42,056 bases of DNA from Candidatus Aenigmatarchaeota archaeon (GTDB lineage: Archaea; Aenigmatarchaeota; Aenigmatarchaeia; CG10238-14; SCSR01). How positions within the stretch are numbered: position 1 is the first letter of the stretch; every line of letters starts with the position of its first letter. Shown one piece after another: positions 27,738 to 41,377 of the stretch. The notes under the pieces were generated by a model that worked only from the letters and a program-made list of their open reading frames with translations, did not search any database and had not been told where the DNA came from. The stretch is taken from NCBI GenBank assembly GCA_018304615.1, contig JAGVVV010000014.1, positions 1 to 42,056 of the forward strand, written 5' to 3'. Made by a program: the position numbers and the translations under genes.

Positions 27738-27823
27738 CGCCTCGAACGGGATTTGAACCCGTGTCACAAGCGTGACAGGCTTATACCTACCAGTTTGTAT
27801 CCTAGCCGCTAGACGATCGAGGC
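27738..27823 (-). tRNA. tRNA-Asp(GTC) with 14-nt intron at 29/30
   Basis: Acceptor GCCTCGA/TCGAGGC, D arm with GG, T arm ACGGG/CCCGT with TTCAAAT, discriminator G, CCA not encoded. Anticodon loop CTGTCAC gives GTC. The gene is 14 bases too long; removing ACTGGTAGGTATAA (27794-27781) restores a perfect anticodon stem CAAGC/GCTTG. The precursor forms a BHB: outer helix TAGG/CCTG, 3-nt bulge AA|A, four-pair core ATAC/GTAT, bulge AA|G, and inner CT/AG with loop GGT. A TATA-like ATTAAATAG lies about 27 bp upstream. Confidence 0.93.
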
Positions 27824-27879: not shown

Positions 27880-27885
27880 TAATTG

Positions 27886-28000
27886 CGTGGCAGCGTCCTG
27901 GAGTTCCCGAACTTTCGTTCAGTACAAACCAGATCTCTGGAGGGCTTAACTTCCGTGTTCGAGACGGGAACGGGTGTTACCCCTCCGATTTGGCCGCCAT
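27886..28000 (-). rRNA. rrf: 5S ribosomal RNA
   Basis: The minus strand contains the universal 5S core: ACACCCGTTCCCGTCTCGAA and CACGGAAGTTAAGCCC, the latter with the conserved GGAAGTTAAGCCC block. Helix I pairs TGGCGGC (27999-27993) with GCTGCCA (27894-27888). Length is about 115 bases; ends are estimated to a few bases. It has its own TATA box and lies between tRNA-Tyr and tRNA-Asp. No 16S or 23S gene is in the window, so this 5S is not in a visible rRNA operon. Confidence 0.95.
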
Positions 28001-28022
28001 CAGTCTATTAATAGAATCTCGT

Positions 28023-28052: not shown

Positions 28053-28167
28053 TCCCCAGGGGGAGAGTTGAACTCCCAACCTTACGCTTACTATACGAGC
28101 AGGTCCTTCTAAAAAGTACGACTGTACTCTTCTACAGGCGTCTGCTCTGCCATTGAGCTACCCGGGG
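28053..28167 (-). tRNA. tRNA-Tyr(GTA) with 43-nt intron at 37/38
   Basis: Acceptor CCCCGGG/CCTGGGG (C1-G72 as in archaeal tRNA-Tyr), D stem GCTC/GAGC, T arm GGGAG/CTCCC, discriminator A. Exon 1 ends CTGTAG (anticodon GTA then G37) and exon 2 starts A38-GCGT. The 43-base intron (28131-28089) gives a BHB with core CTGT/ATAG (one G-T pair) and bulges AG|A and TA|A. It contains a small hairpin AGTAC-AGTC-GTACT. Pair 27-43 is G-A, a weak point. A TATA-like TTTTTATATG lies upstream near 28184-28193. Confidence 0.93.
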
Positions 28168-32522: not shown

Positions 32523-33341
32523 ATGTTGGCATCGACAAAAGTCATGGACGCACTGAAAGGAATTGGCCTCAATCTTTACGAAAGGAGATTGTGGGTAGCA
32601 CTTCTTGCGAGAGGAACTTCTTCTGCGGGCGAACTTTCTGAAATAGCGAACGTTCCTAGATCAAGAGTTTATGATGTTCTTCAGGGATTGGCGGACAAGG
32701 GTTTTGTAGTTGTGCAGACAGGAAAGCCAATAAGATATGTTGCGATGGCTCCTGGTGAATCTCTTGAAAGAGTCAAGAAGAAAATGGAGGAGGAATTTAG
32801 AGAGACCCAGGAAAGAATTGACGATTTGAAATCTTCCCCGCTGATAAAAGAACTAAGTGAATTATTTTCTTCTGGAATGAAAGTTACCACACCTGAAGAC
32901 ATGACAGGATCTCTGAAGGGAAAATATTCATTCCACCAGCAACTCGATACCATGTTCAGAGATGCAAACAAACACATCAACATCATAACAACACCTGAAG
33001 GTTTGAATGATCTTTATAACACTCATTACGAGGCTTTGAAGAAGGCAAAGGAAAGGGGAGTAAAAATTAAGATTGCAACATCGGGTACTGAAAAAGCTTC
33101 CGAAGCAATCAAAGCGATAAATGGTGTTGGCGAGGTCAGGCACATAGACGACAAGGAAGCCGATGTTTCTGGTAGATTTGTCGTCGTTGATGACAAGCAG
33201 TTAGTCCTTGCACTGACAGACCAGAAAGGAGTCCATTCGACTCAGGAGATGGCTATTTGGAGCAAGAGCGAGCACGCAGCAGGAGATGTCCTTTCTCCTT
33301 TATTCAACATGGTTTGGAATCGTTCAAAATCAGTCGGTTAA
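32523..33341 (+). CDS. TrmB-family transcriptional regulator
   Basis: 272 residues. The N-terminal winged helix (residues 8-75) has YERRLWVALLARGTSSAGELSEIANVPRSRVYDVLQGLADKGFV, then the wing GKPIRYVAMAP. A coiled-coil linker (about 76-115) leads to a C-terminal domain of the phospholipase-D-like type (FHQQLDTMFRDANKHINII...GRFVVVDDKQLVLALTDQ). TrmB proteins often sense sugars; this one lacks an obvious separate sugar-binding module, so the ligand is unknown. It converges on thrS with a 4-bp overlap of stop regions. Confidence 0.9.
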   Translation: MLASTKVMDALKGIGLNLYERRLWVALLARGTSSAGELSEIANVPRSRVYDVLQGLADKGFVVVQTGKPIRYVAMAPGESLERVKKKMEEEFRETQERIDDLKSSPLIKELSELFSSGMKVTTPEDMTGSLKGKYSFHQQLDTMFRDANKHINIITTPEGLNDLYNTHYEALKKAKERGVKIKIATSGTEKASEAIKAINGVGEVRHIDDKEADVSGRFVVVDDKQLVLALTDQKGVHSTQEMAIWSKSEHAAGDVLSPLFNMVWNRSKSVG

Positions 33342-35023
33342 TTTCTTTTCTCAATCTGTTTCTTCAATTCCTTTACGAAATCTTCTAACTTAACTTTGAA
33401 CTTCACTTTCCCTTCCCTGTCTCTAACTGCTATACTTTTACTATCTTCTTCCTTCTTCCCAATGATAATCATGTAAGGAATCTTTTGCAGTTGCGCCATT
33501 TTAATTTTATATTCTATTTTATGCGAATCAAAATCCCCCTCGGCTCTAATGTCATTTTCTAAAAGTTCATTCAAAAGTTTTTGTGCATGCTTGTTGTTGT
33601 CATCAGAAATCGGGAGAATCCTGACTTGAACTGGAGCGAGCCAAACTGGGAATTTACCTTGGTAATGCTCGACAAGAATCCCCATGAATCTTTCTAAGGC
33701 TCCGTAAATCACACGATGGATCACTATCGGAATGTGTTCCTTTCCATCTTCTCCAATGTAACTTGCCTTGAATCTTTCCGGCATCACGGAATCGAGTTGA
33801 ACAGTAGCTAACTGCCACTTCCTGTCCATGGAATCTTTTATGTGGAAATCTATTTTCGGTCCGTAGAAAGCCCCTTCGCCTGGATTTTTAGAATATTTTA
33901 TTTTCGCATCTTTCAGAGACTTTTCTAGAGCTTCCTCTGCCTTTTTCCAAATCCTTTCATCGCCCATCGCCTTCTCTGGTTTCAAAGAAAGTTCTACAGA
34001 ATATTCAAAACCAAAAACATCATAGAAGTATTTCACCAAATCGATGACTGCAATGATTTCTTTCTCCAGATTCTTCTCGTCGACAAAAATGTGTGCATCG
34101 TCCTGAACGAACGCCCTCAGCCTGAATAAACCGGACAAGACTCCGCTAAGTTCATTTCTGTGGACAAGACCCAGCTCATTGTATCTTATCGGGAGATCTC
34201 TGTAGCTTCTTGACTTGTTTTTGAACACAAGCATCGCGTTCGGGCAATTCATAGGCTTCAGTCCGAATCCTTGGTTCTCAACTTCAGAGAAGAACATGTT
34301 CTCCCTGAAATGGTCCCAGTGCCCGCTCACCTGCCAGAGAGCATTGTTCAAAAGAATTGGTGCAGAGATTTCTTGATACCCTCTCTTGCTGTGTTCCTTC
34401 CTCCAGAAATCTATTAGAATGTTCCTCAGAATGACCCCCTTGGGATGGAGGAAAACCATACCAGGCCCTACTTCCTGGAAACTGAAAAGATCTAACTGCT
34501 CTCCTATAATCCTATGATCCTTTTCGCTTAATCCCTCAAAGTCGCTTCTCTTTATCAGAACCATCGGATTTTTAATTTCCCTGACAGATTTCATTTCCAC
34601 TTTCTTTTCTTTCGAACTCCCGAATACCTTTGACTGCTCGGCAAGAGGATGGGCCTTCACCTTTATTGCGAGAGCCTTGTTCCAACCGAATGGAGCTCTG
34701 TAAACTTCTATCTTCAGCTTCTTCGCATGAGCTTCCATTTCTTTTATAATTTTCAATGCTTCGTCAGGTTTTGCCAGACTCCTGCTGAGATGAGCGAACG
34801 GATAAATCAATATTTTATTCACTTTGACATTTTTCAAGAACTTTTCAACTTCGTCGACTGCCTCAATCCCAACTTTTGGACCGTCTCCTTCTTCTACAGA
34901 CACGAACAAAACTAGGATTTCCTCTAACCTGTATTTCTTCTTCTCTACTTCCTCGGCCCCAGAAATCTCCTTCCTCACAGGCTCGTATTCTATCCAGTCC
35001 GCATGCATCTGAAGAATTCTCAT
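33338..35023 (-). CDS. thrS: Threonyl-tRNA synthetase, archaeal type
   Basis: 561 residues. The N-terminal 145 residues are the archaeal D-aminoacyl-tRNA-deacylase-like editing domain (MRILQMHADWIEYEPV..., HLSRSLAKP). The class II core follows: MVFLHPKGVILRNILIDFWRKEHSKRG (motif 1), zinc Cys in MNCPNAM, His in DDAHIF, motif 2 with RAFVQDDAH, and zinc His plus motif 3 (VIHRVIYGALERFMGILVEHY). The anticodon-binding domain ends it. An AGAGGGG ribosome-binding site precedes ATG 35023. It charges tRNA-Thr and edits Ser-tRNA-Thr. Confidence 0.97.
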   Translation of the reverse strand: MRILQMHADWIEYEPVRKEISGAEEVEKKKYRLEEILVLFVSVEEGDGPKVGIEAVDEVEKFLKNVKVNKILIYPFAHLSRSLAKPDEALKIIKEMEAHAKKLKIEVYRAPFGWNKALAIKVKAHPLAEQSKVFGSSKEKKVEMKSVREIKNPMVLIKRSDFEGLSEKDHRIIGEQLDLFSFQEVGPGMVFLHPKGVILRNILIDFWRKEHSKRGYQEISAPILLNNALWQVSGHWDHFRENMFFSEVENQGFGLKPMNCPNAMLVFKNKSRSYRDLPIRYNELGLVHRNELSGVLSGLFRLRAFVQDDAHIFVDEKNLEKEIIAVIDLVKYFYDVFGFEYSVELSLKPEKAMGDERIWKKAEEALEKSLKDAKIKYSKNPGEGAFYGPKIDFHIKDSMDRKWQLATVQLDSVMPERFKASYIGEDGKEHIPIVIHRVIYGALERFMGILVEHYQGKFPVWLAPVQVRILPISDDNNKHAQKLLNELLENDIRAEGDFDSHKIEYKIKMAQLQKIPYMIIIGKKEEDSKSIAVRDREGKVKFKVKLEDFVKELKKQIEKRN

Positions 35024-35148
35024 GAGAAACCCCTCTTCATATTACTTGAATTATTTTGGATAAAAAAGGCTAAGCAAGAATTAGATTCTGAGTACTGTTT
35101 GGCCTTCACCTTTCATGTTTGGCACCTAAGAATTATATCATACTGAAG

Positions 35149-35157
35149 TTTATATAA
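35149..35157 (+). promoter_or_regulatory. TATA box for tRNA-Gln
   Basis: TTTATATAA lies about 30 bp upstream of the tRNA-Gln 5' end at 35186, in the thrS-tRNA intergenic region. A second AT-rich segment (ATATTATAT, 35174-35182) follows. Confidence 0.5.
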
Positions 35158-35185
35158 CTGTCGGATGTTGAGAATATTATATCAC

Positions 35186-35279
35186 AGCCCCGTCGTCTAG
35201 TGGCCAAGGATACGGGCCTCTGGAGCCTGGGACGCCTGTTCGAAACTTTCATAAGAAAGCGAAATTCAGGCCGGGGCTA
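35186..35279 (+). tRNA. tRNA-Gln(CTG) with 21-nt intron at 59/60 in the T-loop
   Basis: Acceptor AGCCCCG/CGGGGCT (A1-U72, as in archaeal Gln tRNA), discriminator A. Anticodon arm CGGGC-CTCTGGA-GCCTG gives CTG. The T stem is GCCTG/CAGGC, but 28 bases lie between instead of 7. Removing 35245-35265 leaves the classic T-loop TTCGAAT. The precursor is a textbook BHB: T stem (5 bp), bulge AA|A, core TTCG/CGAA, bulge AT|T, inner stem CTTTC/GAAAG with loop ATAA. The 3' end overlaps the pyrB stop codon by 3 bp. Confidence 0.95.
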
Positions 35280-36245
35280 ATTTCTTCCTATTAGCGAATG
35301 TAAAATTGCCATTCTAACATATACTCCATTATCAGACTGATCGAAATACGATGCGTTTGGAGCATTATCCACTCCATAACTTAGTTCATCAATCCTCGGC
35401 AACGGATGCATTACTATGAGGTCAGGTCTGCCTTCTTTTATCAGTTCTGGAGTTACAGTAAAATCTTCCTTTACTCTTAGATAATCATCCAAGTCTTGCC
35501 TGTCTTTAATTCTTTCTTGTTGGGTTCTTGTTTGATAAAGGACATTAATGTGACTGATAACTTTTCTCGGATTATCAACTCTTTCTACCTTCACTCCTTT
35601 ACTTACAACTCCCTCAATTACTTCATTTCTTACTTGGAAAACTCTTGGAGCAATATAAAATATAGAGATGTTTCCATAATTTGCCAAAGCGTAACTCAGA
35701 GAAGGTACAGTCCTTCCATAATACAAATCACCCATGATCCCCACATTCAAACCGTCTAATCTTCCAATTTTTTCTCTCATAGTAAACAAATCTAACATCG
35801 CTTGTGTAGGATGTTCTTCAGAACCAGTGCCTCCATTAATTACAGGAACTTTTAGGTTGTATTTTTTCATTATATCTGAAACTTGTCTTGCAGCTCCATC
35901 TGCTTCGTGCCTCATGACAAGTGTACTCATTCCATAACCAGCTATAACTCTTGCCGCATCTGACAGACTTTCCCCTTTTTTGAATGACGATATGCTAGGA
36001 TCAGTAATGCCATTGACCAAACCCCCCAGAAAATAAGTCGCCTGCGTAAAACTACCAACAGTTCTAGTTGAAGGTTCGCAAAAAAGAAGTCCAACTATTT
36101 TTCTCTCGAGAGATCTTCTGTAATTAGGAAAATCTTCTTTCCTCTCGCTTTTTATTTTTGCCGCCAAGTCCAAAATAAAATCAAGTTCTTCTCTTTTGAA
36201 TTCTTTAATAGAAATTATATCTCGATTTCGAAAGGAAGAAGCCAA
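35277..36245 (-). CDS. pyrB: Aspartate carbamoyltransferase catalytic subunit
   Basis: Makes carbamoyl-aspartate in pyrimidine synthesis. Carbamoyl-phosphate loop EPSTRTVGSF (usually STRTRxSF; Val replaces Arg), then MRHEADGAARQ, GGTGSEEHPTQAMLDLFTM, GIMGDLYYGRTVPSL, MHPLPRIDEL and NGVYVRMAIL. No Met is near the N-terminus; TTG 36245 is chosen because it gives about 322 residues starting just before NRDIISIKEF, close to the usual 310. The frame is open to TTG 36290, which would add 15 residues. No pyrI regulatory subunit is adjacent. Confidence 0.92.
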   Translation of the reverse strand: MASSFRNRDIISIKEFKREELDFILDLAAKIKSERKEDFPNYRRSLERKIVGLLFCEPSTRTVGSFTQATYFLGGLVNGITDPSISSFKKGESLSDAARVIAGYGMSTLVMRHEADGAARQVSDIMKKYNLKVPVINGGTGSEEHPTQAMLDLFTMREKIGRLDGLNVGIMGDLYYGRTVPSLSYALANYGNISIFYIAPRVFQVRNEVIEGVVSKGVKVERVDNPRKVISHINVLYQTRTQQERIKDRQDLDDYLRVKEDFTVTPELIKEGRPDLIVMHPLPRIDELSYGVDNAPNASYFDQSDNGVYVRMAILHSLIGRN

Positions 36246-36334
36246 TTCAATTTCTGTTGTCGTTAGGACCCACAATAATTTTAGTAACAAAGATATTTAT
36301 TCTAGTTTCGGATTTTTCACAAAATAGAAAAGTA

Positions 36335-36385
36335 GGAAGGGTTAGGAACATCTTTTTGGTGTCGATATAGGTCCTAAACCCTACC
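36335..36385 (+). promoter_or_regulatory. Inverted repeat around GGTGTC, upstream of the methyltransferase
   Basis: GGGTTAGGA (36339-36347) and TCCTAAACCC (36372-36381) form a near-perfect inverted repeat with one bulged base, looping out TCTTTTTGGTGTCGATATAG. The loop carries GGTGTC. The gap between pyrB and the methyltransferase is short and divergent, so this may be an RNA leader hairpin or an operator. Confidence 0.4.
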
Positions 36386-37053
36386 CGAACAAAAATTTGA
36401 TAAAGATACTTAAATCAATTTGTATAGTGGAGAATCAGAATCACTCGAAAGAAGTAAAGAAGAATCTGAGGGAAGTTTACGACACAATTGCTGACTCGTG
36501 GACGAATTTGAGAGTCAAACCTGATGAATTTGTGAATGATTTTGCTGAAAAAAACATTGGAAGTCCTTTGCTGGATCTGGCCACTGGAAATGGAAGAAAT
36601 CTTGTCCCTTTCTTGAATAAAAATATAAAATGCATAGGAATTGATTTTTCAAGAAATATGATTAAAGAAGCGAAGAAATTTCTGAGCAGAAGAAAATTGA
36701 CAGCAAATTTTATCATAGCAGACATCACAAAACTGCCGTTCAAAGAAAAAACCTTCAAAACAATTTTGGCTGTTGCAATCATCCATCATCTCGAAACGAG
36801 AGAGAAGAGACTGAAAGCTCTGAGAGAGGTCAAAAGAGTTTCAAACAATTCTAATGTTCTAATCTCTGTTTGGAAAGATGAGACTGCAGCTCCCAATGAA
36901 TATAAACTCTGGAGGTATCATGGAAAAGAATATAAGAGATTCTATCACTTCTACTCTCTCGAAGAGATTGATCAAGATTTGAAAGAGTCAGGTTTTGTTA
37001 AATTTAATCACAGAGATGACAAGAAGAATTTTGTAATAGAAGAGAAGTTATGA
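36367..37053 (+). CDS. Class I SAM-dependent methyltransferase
   Basis: A Rossmann-fold methyltransferase. Motif I LLDLATGNGRNLVPFL, acidic end of strand 2 CIGIDFSRNM, FIIADITKLPFKEKTFKTILAVAIIHHL (motifs II-III), then SVWKD. The pattern NLREVYDTIADSW...LLDLATGNGRN resembles Trm9/ABH8-type tRNA wobble-uridine methyltransferases, which would fit the Elp3 gene 310 bp away (inference). Start is uncertain: ATA 36367 follows GGTGTC-GAT, TTG 36397 and GTG 36427 are alternatives. GTG 36427, giving 208 residues from VENQNHSKEV, is the conservative choice. Confidence 0.75.
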   Translation: MGPKPYPNKNLIKILKSICIVENQNHSKEVKKNLREVYDTIADSWTNLRVKPDEFVNDFAEKNIGSPLLDLATGNGRNLVPFLNKNIKCIGIDFSRNMIKEAKKFLSRRKLTANFIIADITKLPFKEKTFKTILAVAIIHHLETREKRLKALREVKRVSNNSNVLISVWKDETAAPNEYKLWRYHGKEYKRFYHFYSLEEIDQDLKESGFVKFNHRDDKKNFVIEEKL

Positions 37054-37057
37054 GTAA

Positions 37058-37213
37058 TCACTTGTTCAATTGGGTTGCCTTTTCTCTCAGATAATTAATC
37101 TTGTTTTGGATGAACTTGATTTCCCTTACAGTCTTAGCTGCGAACAAAGCATGTCTGGCTTCATACAGCTGTTCTTCAATGAACCTGATTTGCTCCAAGT
37201 TTCTTGTGTTCAT
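37058..37213 (-). CDS. Small coiled-coil protein (51 aa)
   Basis: 51 residues forming two amphipathic helices (EQIRFIEEQLYEARHALFAAKT and EIKFIQNKINYLREKATQLN). This is a heptad-like hairpin with no cysteines. AGTGATTGAAA before ATG is a good ribosome-binding site. It is convergent with the methyltransferase and divergent from elp3, sharing a repeat-rich control region with it. Function unknown; it may be a small dimerising or protein-binding helix pair. Confidence 0.55.
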   Translation of the reverse strand: MNTRNLEQIRFIEEQLYEARHALFAAKTVREIKFIQNKINYLREKATQLNK

Positions 37214-37220
37214 TTTCAAT

Positions 37221-37282
37221 CACTAATGTTATTCACTTATTAGTGGTAATAGTATATAAAGGTTACTATTCTCAGGTAGTAA
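37221..37282. promoter_or_regulatory. Nested inverted repeats in the coiled-coil/elp3 divergent promoter region
   Basis: Three perfect inverted pairs: CACTAAT (37221) with ATTAGTG (37239); AATAGTA (37248) with TACTATT (37264), whose spacer TATAAAGGT contains a TATA-like element; and TTACTA (37263) with TAGTAA (37277). The half-site TACTA/TAGTA recurs. This could be an operator cluster for a dimeric regulator. Confidence 0.45.
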
Positions 37283-37362
37283 TTTATTACATATGGGATA
37301 GGAACTCCTTGTAGCCTCCTTATAAACTAGCATTTTAGCCTCAGAGGACAAAATAAGGAAAT

Positions 37363-38949
37363 ATGGAGTTTGAACAGTCATTTCTTAGAGAGGCAGTAGA
37401 AAAGCTGGCTTCTACCCCAAATCTTTCCAGAAACAAAGCCGAGCTTGTGACAAAGTCTGTCGCAAAGAAATACGGTCTTCACTTCCTTCCTACAAATGTC
37501 CAGCTCTTACAGGCCTGTAACGAGGAAGAAAAATCCAAGTTGAAACAGGTCCTCCTCAGAAAGCCTATCAGATCCATTTCAGGCGTCAACATCATCACAA
37601 TAGCTGCGACTTCTGCTTCAAATTCCTGCATATGGGCCCAGTGCATCTACTGCCCTAAAGGCTCTAACTCCCCGCAAAGCTATGTCGGAACAGAACCTGT
37701 AATTCAAAGAGCCATACGAAGAAACTATGATCCGTTCTTGCAGGTCTCAGACAGGCTCAGACAGTACAGCCTCATGGGGCATGGCCAATTCGGCAACAAA
37801 ATAGAGGTAATAATAGTTGGAGGAACTTTTCCCGGTTTGGAAGATGATTACAAGGAATGGTTCATCAAGAGGATGTTCGACGGATTGAACAATTCTGAAT
37901 CAAAAACCCTTGAAGAGGCCCAACTGTTAAATGAAACCGCGCCAAACAGATGCGTGAATCTCACTATTGAGACTAGGCCTGACTATTCCAAAGAAAGAGA
38001 CGTCGACGAAATGCTGAGATTCGGAACTACCAGAATAGAGATAGGAGTGCAGTCGATATACGAAGATGTAATTGATTTTGCGAAAAGAGGCCATACGATT
38101 CAGGATGTCATTGAAGCAACAAGAACAGTGAAAAATTCTGCCTTGAAAATAAACTACCACTTGATGCCTGGACTTCCATTCTCCGATTTTGACAAAGACC
38201 TTGACATGTTCAGGGAATTGTTTGCGAATCATGACTTCAAACCCGATTATCTGAAAATCTATCCTACCATAGTCTTGAAAGGGACAAGATTGTACGAGCT
38301 CTGGAAAAATGGCGAATACAAATCTTATTCGAGCGGGGAGCTTGTTGAAATGTTGGCCAAGGCGAAGAAGTTCATTCCAAAATATTGCAGGATACAGCAC
38401 GTTGGAAGATTGATTCCTGCCAACGAAGTCGAGGCAGGATATAAAGAAACAAACATCAGGCAACTTGTCCAGCAAAAGGCGAGACAGCTTGGAATAAATT
38501 GCCAGTGCATAAGGTGTCGTGAGATTGGGTTCAAAATAAGGGATGGAATTCTCCCTGAGAAAATAGAGATGACCAGAATGGATTACGAGGCTTCTGGAGG
38601 ACACGAAATTTTTCTTGCGTTTGAAGATTTGAAGAAAGATATCATTTTTGGATTTCTGAGGTTGAGATTTCCACCTTCCAGCCACAGGAAAGAAATAGAT
38701 TCGAACACAGCCCTTGTCAGGGAACTGAAAGTCATGGGAACTACAGTCCCCATCGGGCTCGATCCTGAGAAAATTCAATGGCAGCATCGAGGATTTGGAA
38801 AGCAGCTGATGAGCGAGAGTGAAAGAATTTCAAAAGAAGAGTTCGACAAGAAAAAGATGATTGTCATCAGCGCGATTGGAACAAGAGAATACTACAAGAA
38901 ACTTGGATATGAGAAGGAAGGAGTCTATGTTTCCAAAGTTTTAAACTAA
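37363..38949 (+). CDS. elp3: Elp3: radical SAM/GNAT tRNA wobble-uridine modification enzyme
   Basis: 528 residues. Radical SAM cluster C89-x4-C94-x2-C97 (CIWAQCIYCPKG), then IEVIIVGGTFPG, NLTIETRPDYS and RIEIGVQSIYEDV. The C-terminal GNAT domain has the acetyl-CoA loop QHRGFGKQLM and YYKKLGYE. A cysteine pair (CQCIRCREIG) is the zinc site between domains. It makes carboxymethyl-U34 in tRNA; archaeal Elp3 acts alone. It heads an apparent elp3-cca-rnz tRNA maturation cluster. Confidence 0.95.
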   Translation: MEFEQSFLREAVEKLASTPNLSRNKAELVTKSVAKKYGLHFLPTNVQLLQACNEEEKSKLKQVLLRKPIRSISGVNIITIAATSASNSCIWAQCIYCPKGSNSPQSYVGTEPVIQRAIRRNYDPFLQVSDRLRQYSLMGHGQFGNKIEVIIVGGTFPGLEDDYKEWFIKRMFDGLNNSESKTLEEAQLLNETAPNRCVNLTIETRPDYSKERDVDEMLRFGTTRIEIGVQSIYEDVIDFAKRGHTIQDVIEATRTVKNSALKINYHLMPGLPFSDFDKDLDMFRELFANHDFKPDYLKIYPTIVLKGTRLYELWKNGEYKSYSSGELVEMLAKAKKFIPKYCRIQHVGRLIPANEVEAGYKETNIRQLVQQKARQLGINCQCIRCREIGFKIRDGILPEKIEMTRMDYEASGGHEIFLAFEDLKKDIIFGFLRLRFPPSSHRKEIDSNTALVRELKVMGTTVPIGLDPEKIQWQHRGFGKQLMSESERISKEEFDKKKMIVISAIGTREYYKKLGYEKEGVYVSKVLN

Positions 38950-38967
38950 AAATCAAAGATTATTATT

Positions 38968-40398
38968 ATGTCTAAAGATTATGCGAGAGTTCTGAATGAG
39001 GTTTTGAAAGAGATTACTCCAAAATCTGGCGAGAAGAAGAACTTAGTTTCTCTTGCTAAAGGTGCGGTCTATATCGCGAAAAAAGAATCTGCGAAATTTA
39101 AAGGCAAACCTATGCTGGCTGGTAGTTTGACAAGAGACACGTGGCTTCCAGGAAAGAAAGAGTTCGATGTTTTCATTCTTTTCCCTCCTAAGCTTGATGT
39201 AAAGAAGATGGAGAAGTTCGGTTTGGAAATAGGAAAGAACGTCATAAAAAAGATGAACGGAACTTTTGTGATCGAATACGCCCAGCATCCTTATGTCTCA
39301 GGAAATGTTCAAGGTGCTAGAATAGATATCGTTCCAGCATTCGAGATTAAATCGACTAAAGAGTTGAAGTCAGCTGTCGACAGAACTCCTTTTCACGTCA
39401 GATACATAGAGAAGAGACTTTCCAAGAAATCTGCAAAGGAAGTCAGGCTGCTGAAACAATTCTGCAATGCAAACGGTCTTTACGGGGCTGATGCGAAGAC
39501 AGAAGGATTCTCAGGATACGTATGCGAACTGCTGATTGTGAAATACAAGAAATTCATGGAAGTTTTGGAGAATGCCAGCGAATGGGAACCTGGGGCTGTC
39601 ATTGATTTGGAGAATCAACATTCTAAATCAGAATACGGAAAACTAATGAAGACTTTCAAAGGCCAGCCTCTTATTCTCATTGACCCGACAGACGAGACTA
39701 GAAACACTGGTGCAGCAATTTCTTCATACAACTTCTTCAAGTTCAAGAAACTTGCAGCTGACTTTCTAAAAAATCCAAGCAAAGAACATTTCTTCCAACC
39801 TTCTATAAAACCGTTAAATAAAGACGAGCTTATAAGTTGGCAGCTTAAGAGACGAACTGAGATTATTTTTGTGAAATTTAAAACCCCAGATGTGGTTCCT
39901 GACATACTCTGGCCGCAACTGAGAAGATTCGCAGAAAGGTTGAAGTCCATTCTTGAAGAAGTCAAGTACGAGTTCAAGGTTTTTGGCAAGGACGTCTACT
40001 CCGATAAGGAGACTTGTGTTATTTTGCTGGAAATGGAAATTTCTAAACTTCCTTCAATCCAGAAAAGAATTGGACCGAATGTCTTCGATCACAAGGATGC
40101 GAGAAACTTTGTAGAAAAATACAAGAAGCAGGCTCTGGCAGGTCCATATGTGGAAAATGGGTTTTGGGTAGTCGAAGTTAGCAGGAAGTTCATGTCTGCA
40201 AGAAAAAAATTAGAGGATTCTCTGAAAGCAAGCGAGAATGTTTTGAAAGCAAAAGGGATTCCAAACTTCATCGCATCCCAGCTCGTGAAAGAAGTCGAAA
40301 TAATTACAGAAACCCAGAAGATAATAGATCTGATTAAGAAAGATCAAGAGTTTGGAAAATTCTTGAGGAGATATTTCGAAAAAGAGAGTTTAGTATGA
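38968..40398 (+). CDS. cca: CCA tRNA nucleotidyltransferase, archaeal class I
   Basis: 476 residues. The nucleotidyltransferase motif is GSLTRDTWLPGKKEFDVFI (residues about 48-66), with the E-x-D pair (EFD) and a third carboxylate in ARIDIVPAFEI, as in the archaeal enzyme. Tail, body and head domains follow. It adds CCA to tRNA 3' ends. All four tRNA genes in the window lack an encoded CCA, so this enzyme is needed. It overlaps rnz by 4 bp (ATGA). Confidence 0.95.
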   Translation: MSKDYARVLNEVLKEITPKSGEKKNLVSLAKGAVYIAKKESAKFKGKPMLAGSLTRDTWLPGKKEFDVFILFPPKLDVKKMEKFGLEIGKNVIKKMNGTFVIEYAQHPYVSGNVQGARIDIVPAFEIKSTKELKSAVDRTPFHVRYIEKRLSKKSAKEVRLLKQFCNANGLYGADAKTEGFSGYVCELLIVKYKKFMEVLENASEWEPGAVIDLENQHSKSEYGKLMKTFKGQPLILIDPTDETRNTGAAISSYNFFKFKKLAADFLKNPSKEHFFQPSIKPLNKDELISWQLKRRTEIIFVKFKTPDVVPDILWPQLRRFAERLKSILEEVKYEFKVFGKDVYSDKETCVILLEMEISKLPSIQKRIGPNVFDHKDARNFVEKYKKQALAGPYVENGFWVVEVSRKFMSARKKLEDSLKASENVLKAKGIPNFIASQLVKEVEIITETQKIIDLIKKDQEFGKFLRRYFEKESLV

Positions 40399-41303
40399 TT
40401 GAGATAACTTTTCTTGGGACAGTGTCTGGAGTTCCGACGAGAGATAGAAACCATCCAGCCATTGCTTTAGAATACTACGGTGAAGGAAAAGACACCCTGC
40501 TTTTCGATTGTGGTGAGGGAACCCAGAAACAACTAATGATATCTGGGATAAGTTTCATGAGGATAAATAAAATCTTCATCACGCACTGGCACGCAGACCA
40601 TTTTGCAGGATTGATTCCTATGATTCAGACAATGAATTTGGAAAAGAGAAAACATGATCTGAAAATTTTCGGACCGGAGGCTGAAAGATTCGTGGAAGAC
40701 ATAATAGATCTTGGGTACTTCGGTTTGAGATTTCCTGTTGAAGCAATCAACGTTCCATTCGAAGGAAGTGAAGTGACTTTGATCGATGAAACTGAGGATT
40801 ATCAAATATTTTCTTCTCCCATGCTTCATACAGTTCCGACTACTGCTTTCTGCTTTCAGGAGAAGACAAAATGGAGTGTGGATACAAAGAAACTGAAGGA
40901 GATGGGGATTAAAACAGGTTTCTGGCTGAAGAAGTTGAAGAAAGACGGGAAGGCAGAATACAAGGGAAAGATGATTAAACTGGAAGATGTTTCTGTCCCC
41001 AAATCAGGATTGAAAGTGGTTTATTCAGGGGATACGAAACCGAATGAGAACATGCTCAAGCTGGCAAAGGATGCCGATTTGCTCATTCATGATGGCACTT
41101 TTCTAGAAGAAGATGAGAACAAAGGGCATACGGACGTGAAAGCGGCTGCAAAGTTGGCGAAAAAGGCGAATGTCAAGGAATTGATTCTCACACATTTCAG
41201 CAGAAGGTATACTGATTTGAAGGAACTTGATGAAGAAGCAAAAAAATATTTCAAGAACACTAAGCTTGCCCATGACTTCATGAAAGTGAAATTGAAAAGC
41301 TAG
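40395..41303 (+). CDS. rnz: Ribonuclease Z (tRNase Z)
   Basis: 302 residues, short-form tRNase Z. The metallo-beta-lactamase zinc motif is THWHADHFAG (HxHxDH), with further metal ligands in PMLHTVPTTAF, VYSGDTKPN and LTHFSRRYTDL. The exosite arm is in the middle (KTGFWLKKLKKDGKAEYKGKMI). It removes tRNA 3' trailers before CCA addition. It is co-transcribed with cca, and its stop codon abuts the convergent tRNA-Arg gene with no spacer. Confidence 0.95.
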   Translation: MIEITFLGTVSGVPTRDRNHPAIALEYYGEGKDTLLFDCGEGTQKQLMISGISFMRINKIFITHWHADHFAGLIPMIQTMNLEKRKHDLKIFGPEAERFVEDIIDLGYFGLRFPVEAINVPFEGSEVTLIDETEDYQIFSSPMLHTVPTTAFCFQEKTKWSVDTKKLKEMGIKTGFWLKKLKKDGKAEYKGKMIKLEDVSVPKSGLKVVYSGDTKPNENMLKLAKDADLLIHDGTFLEEDENKGHTDVKAAAKLAKKANVKELILTHFSRRYTDLKELDEEAKKYFKNTKLAHDFMKVKLKS

Positions 41304-41377
41304 TGTCCCCACTGGGATTTGAACCCAGATTAAAAGGTCCGCAACCTCTCGTTCTATCCAAGTTGAACTATGGGGAC
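41304..41377 (-). tRNA. tRNA-Arg(GCG), no intron
   Basis: Acceptor GTCCCCA/TGGGGAC, D stem GTTC/GAAC, anticodon arm AGAGG-TTGCGGA-CCTTT with anticodon GCG, T stem CTGGG/CCCAG with TTCAAAT, discriminator A. CCA is not encoded. The 3' end abuts the rnz stop codon. A TATA-like GTTTATAAC lies about 27 bp upstream (41399-41407). Confidence 0.96.

Follow-up and report, generated by a model that had tools for sequence, protein, structure and literature searches.

A 94-nt tRNA-Gln(CTG) gene of a member of the Aenigmatarchaeota (DPANN) carries 21 additional nucleotides within its T loop, which raises the questions of whether this insertion is an intron and, if so, what its removal says about the tRNA splicing endonuclease (EndA) of the organism. 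The gene lies in a 42,056-nt stretch of DNA (the window) belonging to an assembly of 785 kb in 22 contigs, about 89% complete. The original prediction had placed a 21-nt intron at position 59/60 of this tRNA and had taken it, together with a second intron in tRNA-Asp, to imply an alpha-beta heterotetrameric or epsilon-type EndA of broad specificity.

A strict bulge-helix-bulge intron in tRNA-Gln(CTG)

Analysis of the locus revealed a tRNA-Gln(CTG) gene with a 21-nt bulge-helix-bulge (BHB) intron at 59/60 (Table 1). The acceptor strand CGGGGCT is fully paired with AGCCCCG at 35186-35192 (7/7). A strict BHB, with two 3-nt bulges around a 4-bp helix and both outer and inner helices, is the predicted minimum-energy fold of the isolated T arm (-11.9 kcal/mol; z -3.3 against dinucleotide shuffles, 1/200 of which were equally good), and the full 94-nt gene, in its best fold, retains this T-arm structure. 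The BHB/cloverleaf parse gave a 4/4 core with 5 bp in each of the outer and inner helices. Application of the BHB rule, with the cut after the second bulge base, places the intron at 59/60 and leaves the T loop TTCGAAT, identical to that of the intronless orthologue (L033) of a close relative, G004, which has TTCGAATC at the intron site and shows 91% identity over the 5′ 58 nt. Furthermore, in silico excision of the intron between bulge positions 2 and 3 restored a 73-nt tRNA named tRNA-Gln(ctg) by ARAGORN. Sequence, fold and virtual splicing thus agree with the intron as first described, and the predicted fold is identical to the BHB proposed for it, from the T stem to the ATAA loop.

Table 1. 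Features of the tRNA-Gln(CTG) locus and related genes. Positions are those of the window unless a contig or locus is given.
Feature	Position	Strand	Description	Basis
TATA-box-like element	35149-35156	+	TTTATATA, ~33 nt upstream of tRNA-Gln	Read by eye
tRNA-Gln(CTG) gene	35186-35279	+	94 nt including intron	Sequence
5′ exon	35186-35244	+	Mature positions 1-59	Sequence; ARAGORN on spliced gene
Anticodon	35220-35222	+	CTG	Sequence
Intron at 59/60	35245-35265	+	21 nt, ACTTTCATAAGAAAGCGAAAT	BHB fold; BHB/cloverleaf parse; related introns L092 and L047
3′ exon	35266-35279	+	T60, 3′ T stem, acceptor strand CGGGGCT, discriminator A	Sequence
T arm	35234-35271	+	Complete BHB, outer helix formed by T stem	Fold; covariation over six sequences; model match
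T stem	35234-35238 / 35267-35271	+	GCCTG / CAGGC, 5 bp	
BHB core	35239-35242 / 35260-35263	+	TTCG / CGAA, 4 bp	
BHB bulges	35243-35245 and 35264-35266	+	AAA and ATT, 3 nt each	
Inner stem	35246-35250 / 35255-35259	+	CTTTC / GAAAG, 5 bp	
Apical loop	35251-35254	+	ATAA, 4 nt	
tRNA-Asp(GTC) gene	27738-27823	-	14-nt intron at 29/30, outer TAGG/CCTG, core ATAC/GTAT	Hand parse
tRNA-Gln(TTG) gene, same genome (L092)	G000:C10:49800-50300	-	Introns at 37/38 (40 nt) and 59/60 (16 nt)	
tRNA-Thr genes, same genome	L020 1501-1585; L028 1501-1586		Introns at 27/28, no inner helix	
EndA gene, only one found in the genome	G000:C10:75542-76111 (L001:1474-2046)	-	190 aa	

The unspliced gene was missed by ARAGORN and by Rfam at gathering threshold, which would fit a tRNA pseudogene undergoing decay, or an artefact of assembly in which a hairpin had arisen by chance. 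This explanation is scarcely credible, since the spliced gene yields a good cloverleaf and the genome has a second gene with a related intron at this site, as does another genus. The second gene came to light in a genome search for the pattern TTCRAA...CGAAA, whose matches were mostly noise (107 vs 65 with the reversed control): tRNA-Gln(TTG), on contig C10, has the 16-nt intron ACTGAAAAAGCGAAAT at 59/60. In the Gln(TTG) gene of G005 (L047), a member of the same family but of another genus, the 59/60 intron is ACTTAAAAAGCGAAAT, also of 16 nt. The ends ACT...AAGCGAAAT recur in both 16-nt introns and in the 21-nt intron, which makes it likely that the introns have one origin or were copied from one isoacceptor gene to another. 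All three introns keep TTCGAA and CGAAAT, and their T stems and inner stems vary with compensation.

Covariation was assessed on six T-arm introns collected by outer and core pairing, the inner helix being no selection criterion; one of them (L042) was used in a form with its long apical loop trimmed. In this set 97% of the cells were paired and 9 pairs had changed on both sides, with a covariation score of 0.72 vs a shuffled mean of 0.21, and all slid registers scored far worse. Both Gln isoacceptor genes found in the genome contain a T-loop intron, and therefore at least one such intron must be excised for Gln to be decoded.

T-loop introns are widespread in the class

Position 59/60 is among the listed noncanonical tRNA intron positions (PMC4090602), and noncanonical BHB introns at 25/26, 29/30, 56/57 and 59/60 have been described in Crenarchaeota, above all in Thermoproteales (PMC4090602, PMC8450103). 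The introns studied here resemble those of Crenarchaeota in their position at 59/60, their strict BHB, their short length and their occurrence several times per genome and per gene, but differ in their host and in being accompanied, in the family of the source genome, by an alpha-only EndA. The view that T-loop introns are known mainly from some Crenarchaeota fits this literature, yet the position proved to be common in Aenigmatarchaeota: a covariance model of the T-arm BHB gave matches in 49 of the 145 genomes of the class (E up to 0.01). The splicing check covered the 27 top loci with usable coordinates; three loci shortened by contig ends (L228, L231, L248) were left out of it. A cut at 59/60 produced an ARAGORN tRNA in 24 of these 27 loci, vs 5 when unspliced; controls with the cut shifted by -6 and +6 gave 2 and 9 tRNAs, respectively, and the T loop that remains after a +6 shift can be an equivalent one. 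T-loop introns were also seen separately (L060, L147) in G053 and G032, the two genomes to which the three omitted loci belong. The isotypes concerned include Gln, Gly, Ser, Leu, Trp, Met, Lys, Asn, Pro, His, Arg and Val.

These data indicate that introns at the previously known 59/60 position occur widely in the Aenigmatarchaeota class, and extend T-loop introns to a class of DPANN archaea. Standard tools of the ARAGORN type mostly miss tRNA genes with T-loop introns until the intron is removed. In the open-licence literature, we found no report of tRNA introns or a splicing endonuclease specific to Aenigmarchaeota or Nanohaloarchaea. As a side observation, three loci of family f8 (L250, L251 and L255, in G037, G044 and G062) have tRNA genes with long introns at 59/60 whose ends are nearly the same (AGAACCTTTTT...GGTTC.GAAA), possibly through spread of the intron or through common ancestry.

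A single alpha-type EndA gene accompanies the intron

The genome search returned one EndA gene, whose product has one N-terminal and one C-terminal tRNA_int_endo domain, the architecture of the alpha4 enzymes encoded by a single gene (~180 aa, N and C domains) and not that of the epsilon2 enzymes, which are three-unit proteins of ~390 aa. No second EndA homologue was detected in the genome at protein E values up to 10 or profile E values up to 1, and no gene for the second subunit of an (alpha-beta)2 enzyme was found in the ~89% complete assembly, where a very divergent beta could escape the search. An alpha-size EndA gene is present in 14/14 genomes of the family, with a single PF01974 match in 13 and two in G002, and the nine genomes of the sister family f6 with a PF01974 match have one alpha-size EndA each. 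The nearest named relatives are 60-77% identical and nearly all labelled Candidatus Aenigmatarchaeota.

By sequence, the closest solved structure is the alpha4 EndA of Methanocaldococcus jannaschii (M. jannaschii; 1A79, E 3e-30). The AlphaFold model of the homologue from G011 (pLDDT 89, pTM 0.86) also has its best fold match in 1A79 (TM 0.77 by query and 0.85 by target), with alpha subunits ranking above beta. The EndA of the source genome is like 1A79 in being encoded by one gene and in keeping the catalytic Tyr and His, and unlike it in having Ala in place of Lys156 and inserts of 4 aa (at the ASL position) and 6 aa (before the catalytic His).

Reviews count the strict hBHBh′ motif among the substrates of every EndA type (PMC6379350, PMC4033280). 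Because the motif is strict and the EndA found is alpha-only, the Gln intron does not support the inference of an alpha-beta or epsilon enzyme. The lineage is rich in noncanonical introns, some of which have no inner helix, and EndA forms of 360-430 aa, epsilon-like at ~400 aa, occur in other families of the class (f4, f8, f9, f15, f21), so that an intron requiring, and hence revealing, a broad-specificity (alpha-beta)2 or epsilon2 endonuclease could be imagined. Against this stand the strict Gln BHB, the single alpha-type gene and the single PF01974 matches in 13 of 14 family genomes and in nine f6 genomes. Moreover, T-loop introns occur with alpha-only EndA and with the ~400-aa relatives alike, and therefore the intron does not predict the EndA type. 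We regard such a requirement as very improbable. Noncanonical tRNA introns are thereby separated from the two-subunit or epsilon-type EndA to which the literature ties them.

In our preferred reading, this is an archaeal tRNA intron of the protein-spliced kind in a noncanonical position, cut by the sole alpha-type EndA and ligated by RtcB, for which one gene is present in the genome; we hold it with high confidence. In this proposal, the TATA-like site ~33 nt upstream would direct transcription of pre-tRNA-Gln, and the intron would fold with the T stem and the T-loop TTCG into the strict BHB. The presumed cutter, EndA, would cleave at 35244/35245 and 35265/35266, and RtcB would join the exons into a tRNA-Gln(CTG) with a standard T loop, which would then undergo normal maturation. 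We infer the cleavage, the ligation and the action of EndA alone, and even the activity of EndA is presumed, because the usual catalytic lysine is absent.

Relaxed introns point to some breadth of specificity

The BHB/cloverleaf parse of the tRNA genes of the genome revealed many introns, with two in several genes. Introns at 37/38 were found in Gln, Asn, Glu, Met, Ser and Ile genes, and D-loop or D-stem introns in Lys, Phe and Ile genes; several multi-intron tRNAs with ambiguous parses (L030, L093, L097, L029 and L094 plus strand) were excluded from the counts. Thr(TGT) and Thr(CGT) contain 13-nt relaxed introns at 27/28, and Ser(CGA) and Ser(GCT) contain 12-nt relaxed introns at 37/38. In these introns the core and outer helix are present, with no space for an inner helix; in the Thr introns the core draws on the 3′ D-stem strand.

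The published rule is that removal of a relaxed intron requires an (alpha-beta)2 or epsilon2 enzyme (PMC6379350, PMC4033280), and alpha4 enzymes reportedly do not cut such forms. An alpha′2 enzyme has been reported to remove 37/38 bulge-helix-loop introns from full-length precursors (PMC6379350). It is the relaxed introns, above all the Thr pair, that bear on specificity, and not the T-loop intron of tRNA-Gln. Broad specificity, as originally proposed, does not follow from the strict Gln BHB, but some breadth is likely because the Thr 27/28 and Ser 37/38 introns lack an inner helix, which speaks against an alpha4-like restriction to strict BHB.

The genome also resembles ARMAN-1/2 (PMC6379350, PMC12397907) in combining a DPANN host with noncanonical and relaxed introns, and the loop at the ASL position of the family EndA aligns without gaps to that of ARMAN-2. 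Unlike the epsilon2 enzyme of ARMAN-1/2, this EndA is a single-unit alpha protein instead of a three-unit one and has neither the ASL Tyr-Lys pair nor the catalytic lysine. ASL and CSL loops place a lysine beside the active site. In the family, the loop at the ASL position, YGKPLPEE, has a 4-aa insert; K36-P37 is present in it but the Tyr-Lys pair of the ASL (Y160-K161) and the basic residue that would follow K36-P37 (CSL K-P/V-K/R) are missing. The insert is acidic in sequence and absent from f6 and most others. A tie between this insert and T-loop introns was rejected, since G036, G049, G056 and G032 have such introns without it. tRNA matches of up to 77 nt numbered 25/96 in the family and 58/109 in f6 (three genomes each, with kinship uncontrolled); a link of the insert with overall intron load is a weak suggestion.

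An EndA branch without the catalytic lysine

Alignment with the Tyr-His-Lys triad of M. jannaschii (Y115, H125, K156) revealed that the EndA of the source genome keeps Y120 and H136 and has A167 at the Lys position (Mja K156, ARMAN-2 K282); Ala is found there in 14/14 family EndAs. Tyr and His are kept in every aligned sequence. The lysine is replaced by A, T or S in 67 aligned EndAs from Aenigmatarchaeota, Nanohaloarchaeota and one Micrarchaeota record, and kept in 47 other archaeal EndAs, including epsilon-like ones labelled Aenigmatarchaeota. On the EndA tree the loss is one change (support 79/99), and therefore one event inherited by many instead of repeated independent events. The branch thus has a natural alanine at a residue described as essential for catalysis. 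In 66 of the 67 lysine-less EndAs the loop before the His is longer (Tyr-His gap of 15-16 residues vs 9 in M. jannaschii); equally, 66/67 have a lysine aligned to K131 of this EndA, in a G-P-K motif, and a Trp at its position 171.

Alanine at the catalytic Lys position abolishes cleavage by ARMAN-2 EndA (PMC12397907), and some families of the class hold both a lysine-less alpha-size EndA and a longer one. These observations would suit a lysine-less protein serving as a non-catalytic structural subunit, with an unrecognised second protein making the cuts. We consider this unlikely, given the lack of a further homologue in the genome at the E values stated above, the retention of Tyr and His in all sequences, and best sequence and fold matches to catalytic alpha subunits instead of beta. 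We take the EndA of the source genome to be active because its gene is intact, conserved and the only one found; another basic residue, most likely K131, would then replace the catalytic lysine.

More broadly, EndA of Aenigmatarchaeota and Nanohaloarchaeota may have been rewired, the triad lysine being lost once and its role passing to the near-invariant lysine (K131 here) of the 6-7-residue insert before the His, and may, as the only EndA of intron-rich genomes, cut both kinds of motif, strict and relaxed, at many sites in tRNAs, among them the T loop. This proposal is tentative, plausible but somewhat short of probable. If true, it contradicts the rule that reserves such breadth for (alpha-beta)2 and epsilon2 enzymes.

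Further tRNA genes in the window and the genome

The Rfam match to tRNA-Asp(GTC) spans 27738-27806 only and begins inside the gene. A tRNA-Tyr(GTA) with an intron of ~43 nt lies at 28053-28167 (minus strand) of the window, beside a 5S rRNA gene (27885-28001). Elsewhere in the genome, a tRNA-Arg(TCT)-like gene (L029, ~1501-1610, minus) and a tRNA-Asn(GTT)-like gene (L094, ~1185-1290, plus) have added sequence between the acceptor strand and the D arm, possibly introns near positions 7-9. Around tRNA-Gln(CTG), the region 33338-41377 of the window is a tRNA-related neighbourhood, in which the gene is adjoined by that of ThrRS (33338-35023) and followed by those of an Elp3-like radical SAM protein, a CCA-adding enzyme, a tRNase Z-like protein and tRNA-Arg(GCG).
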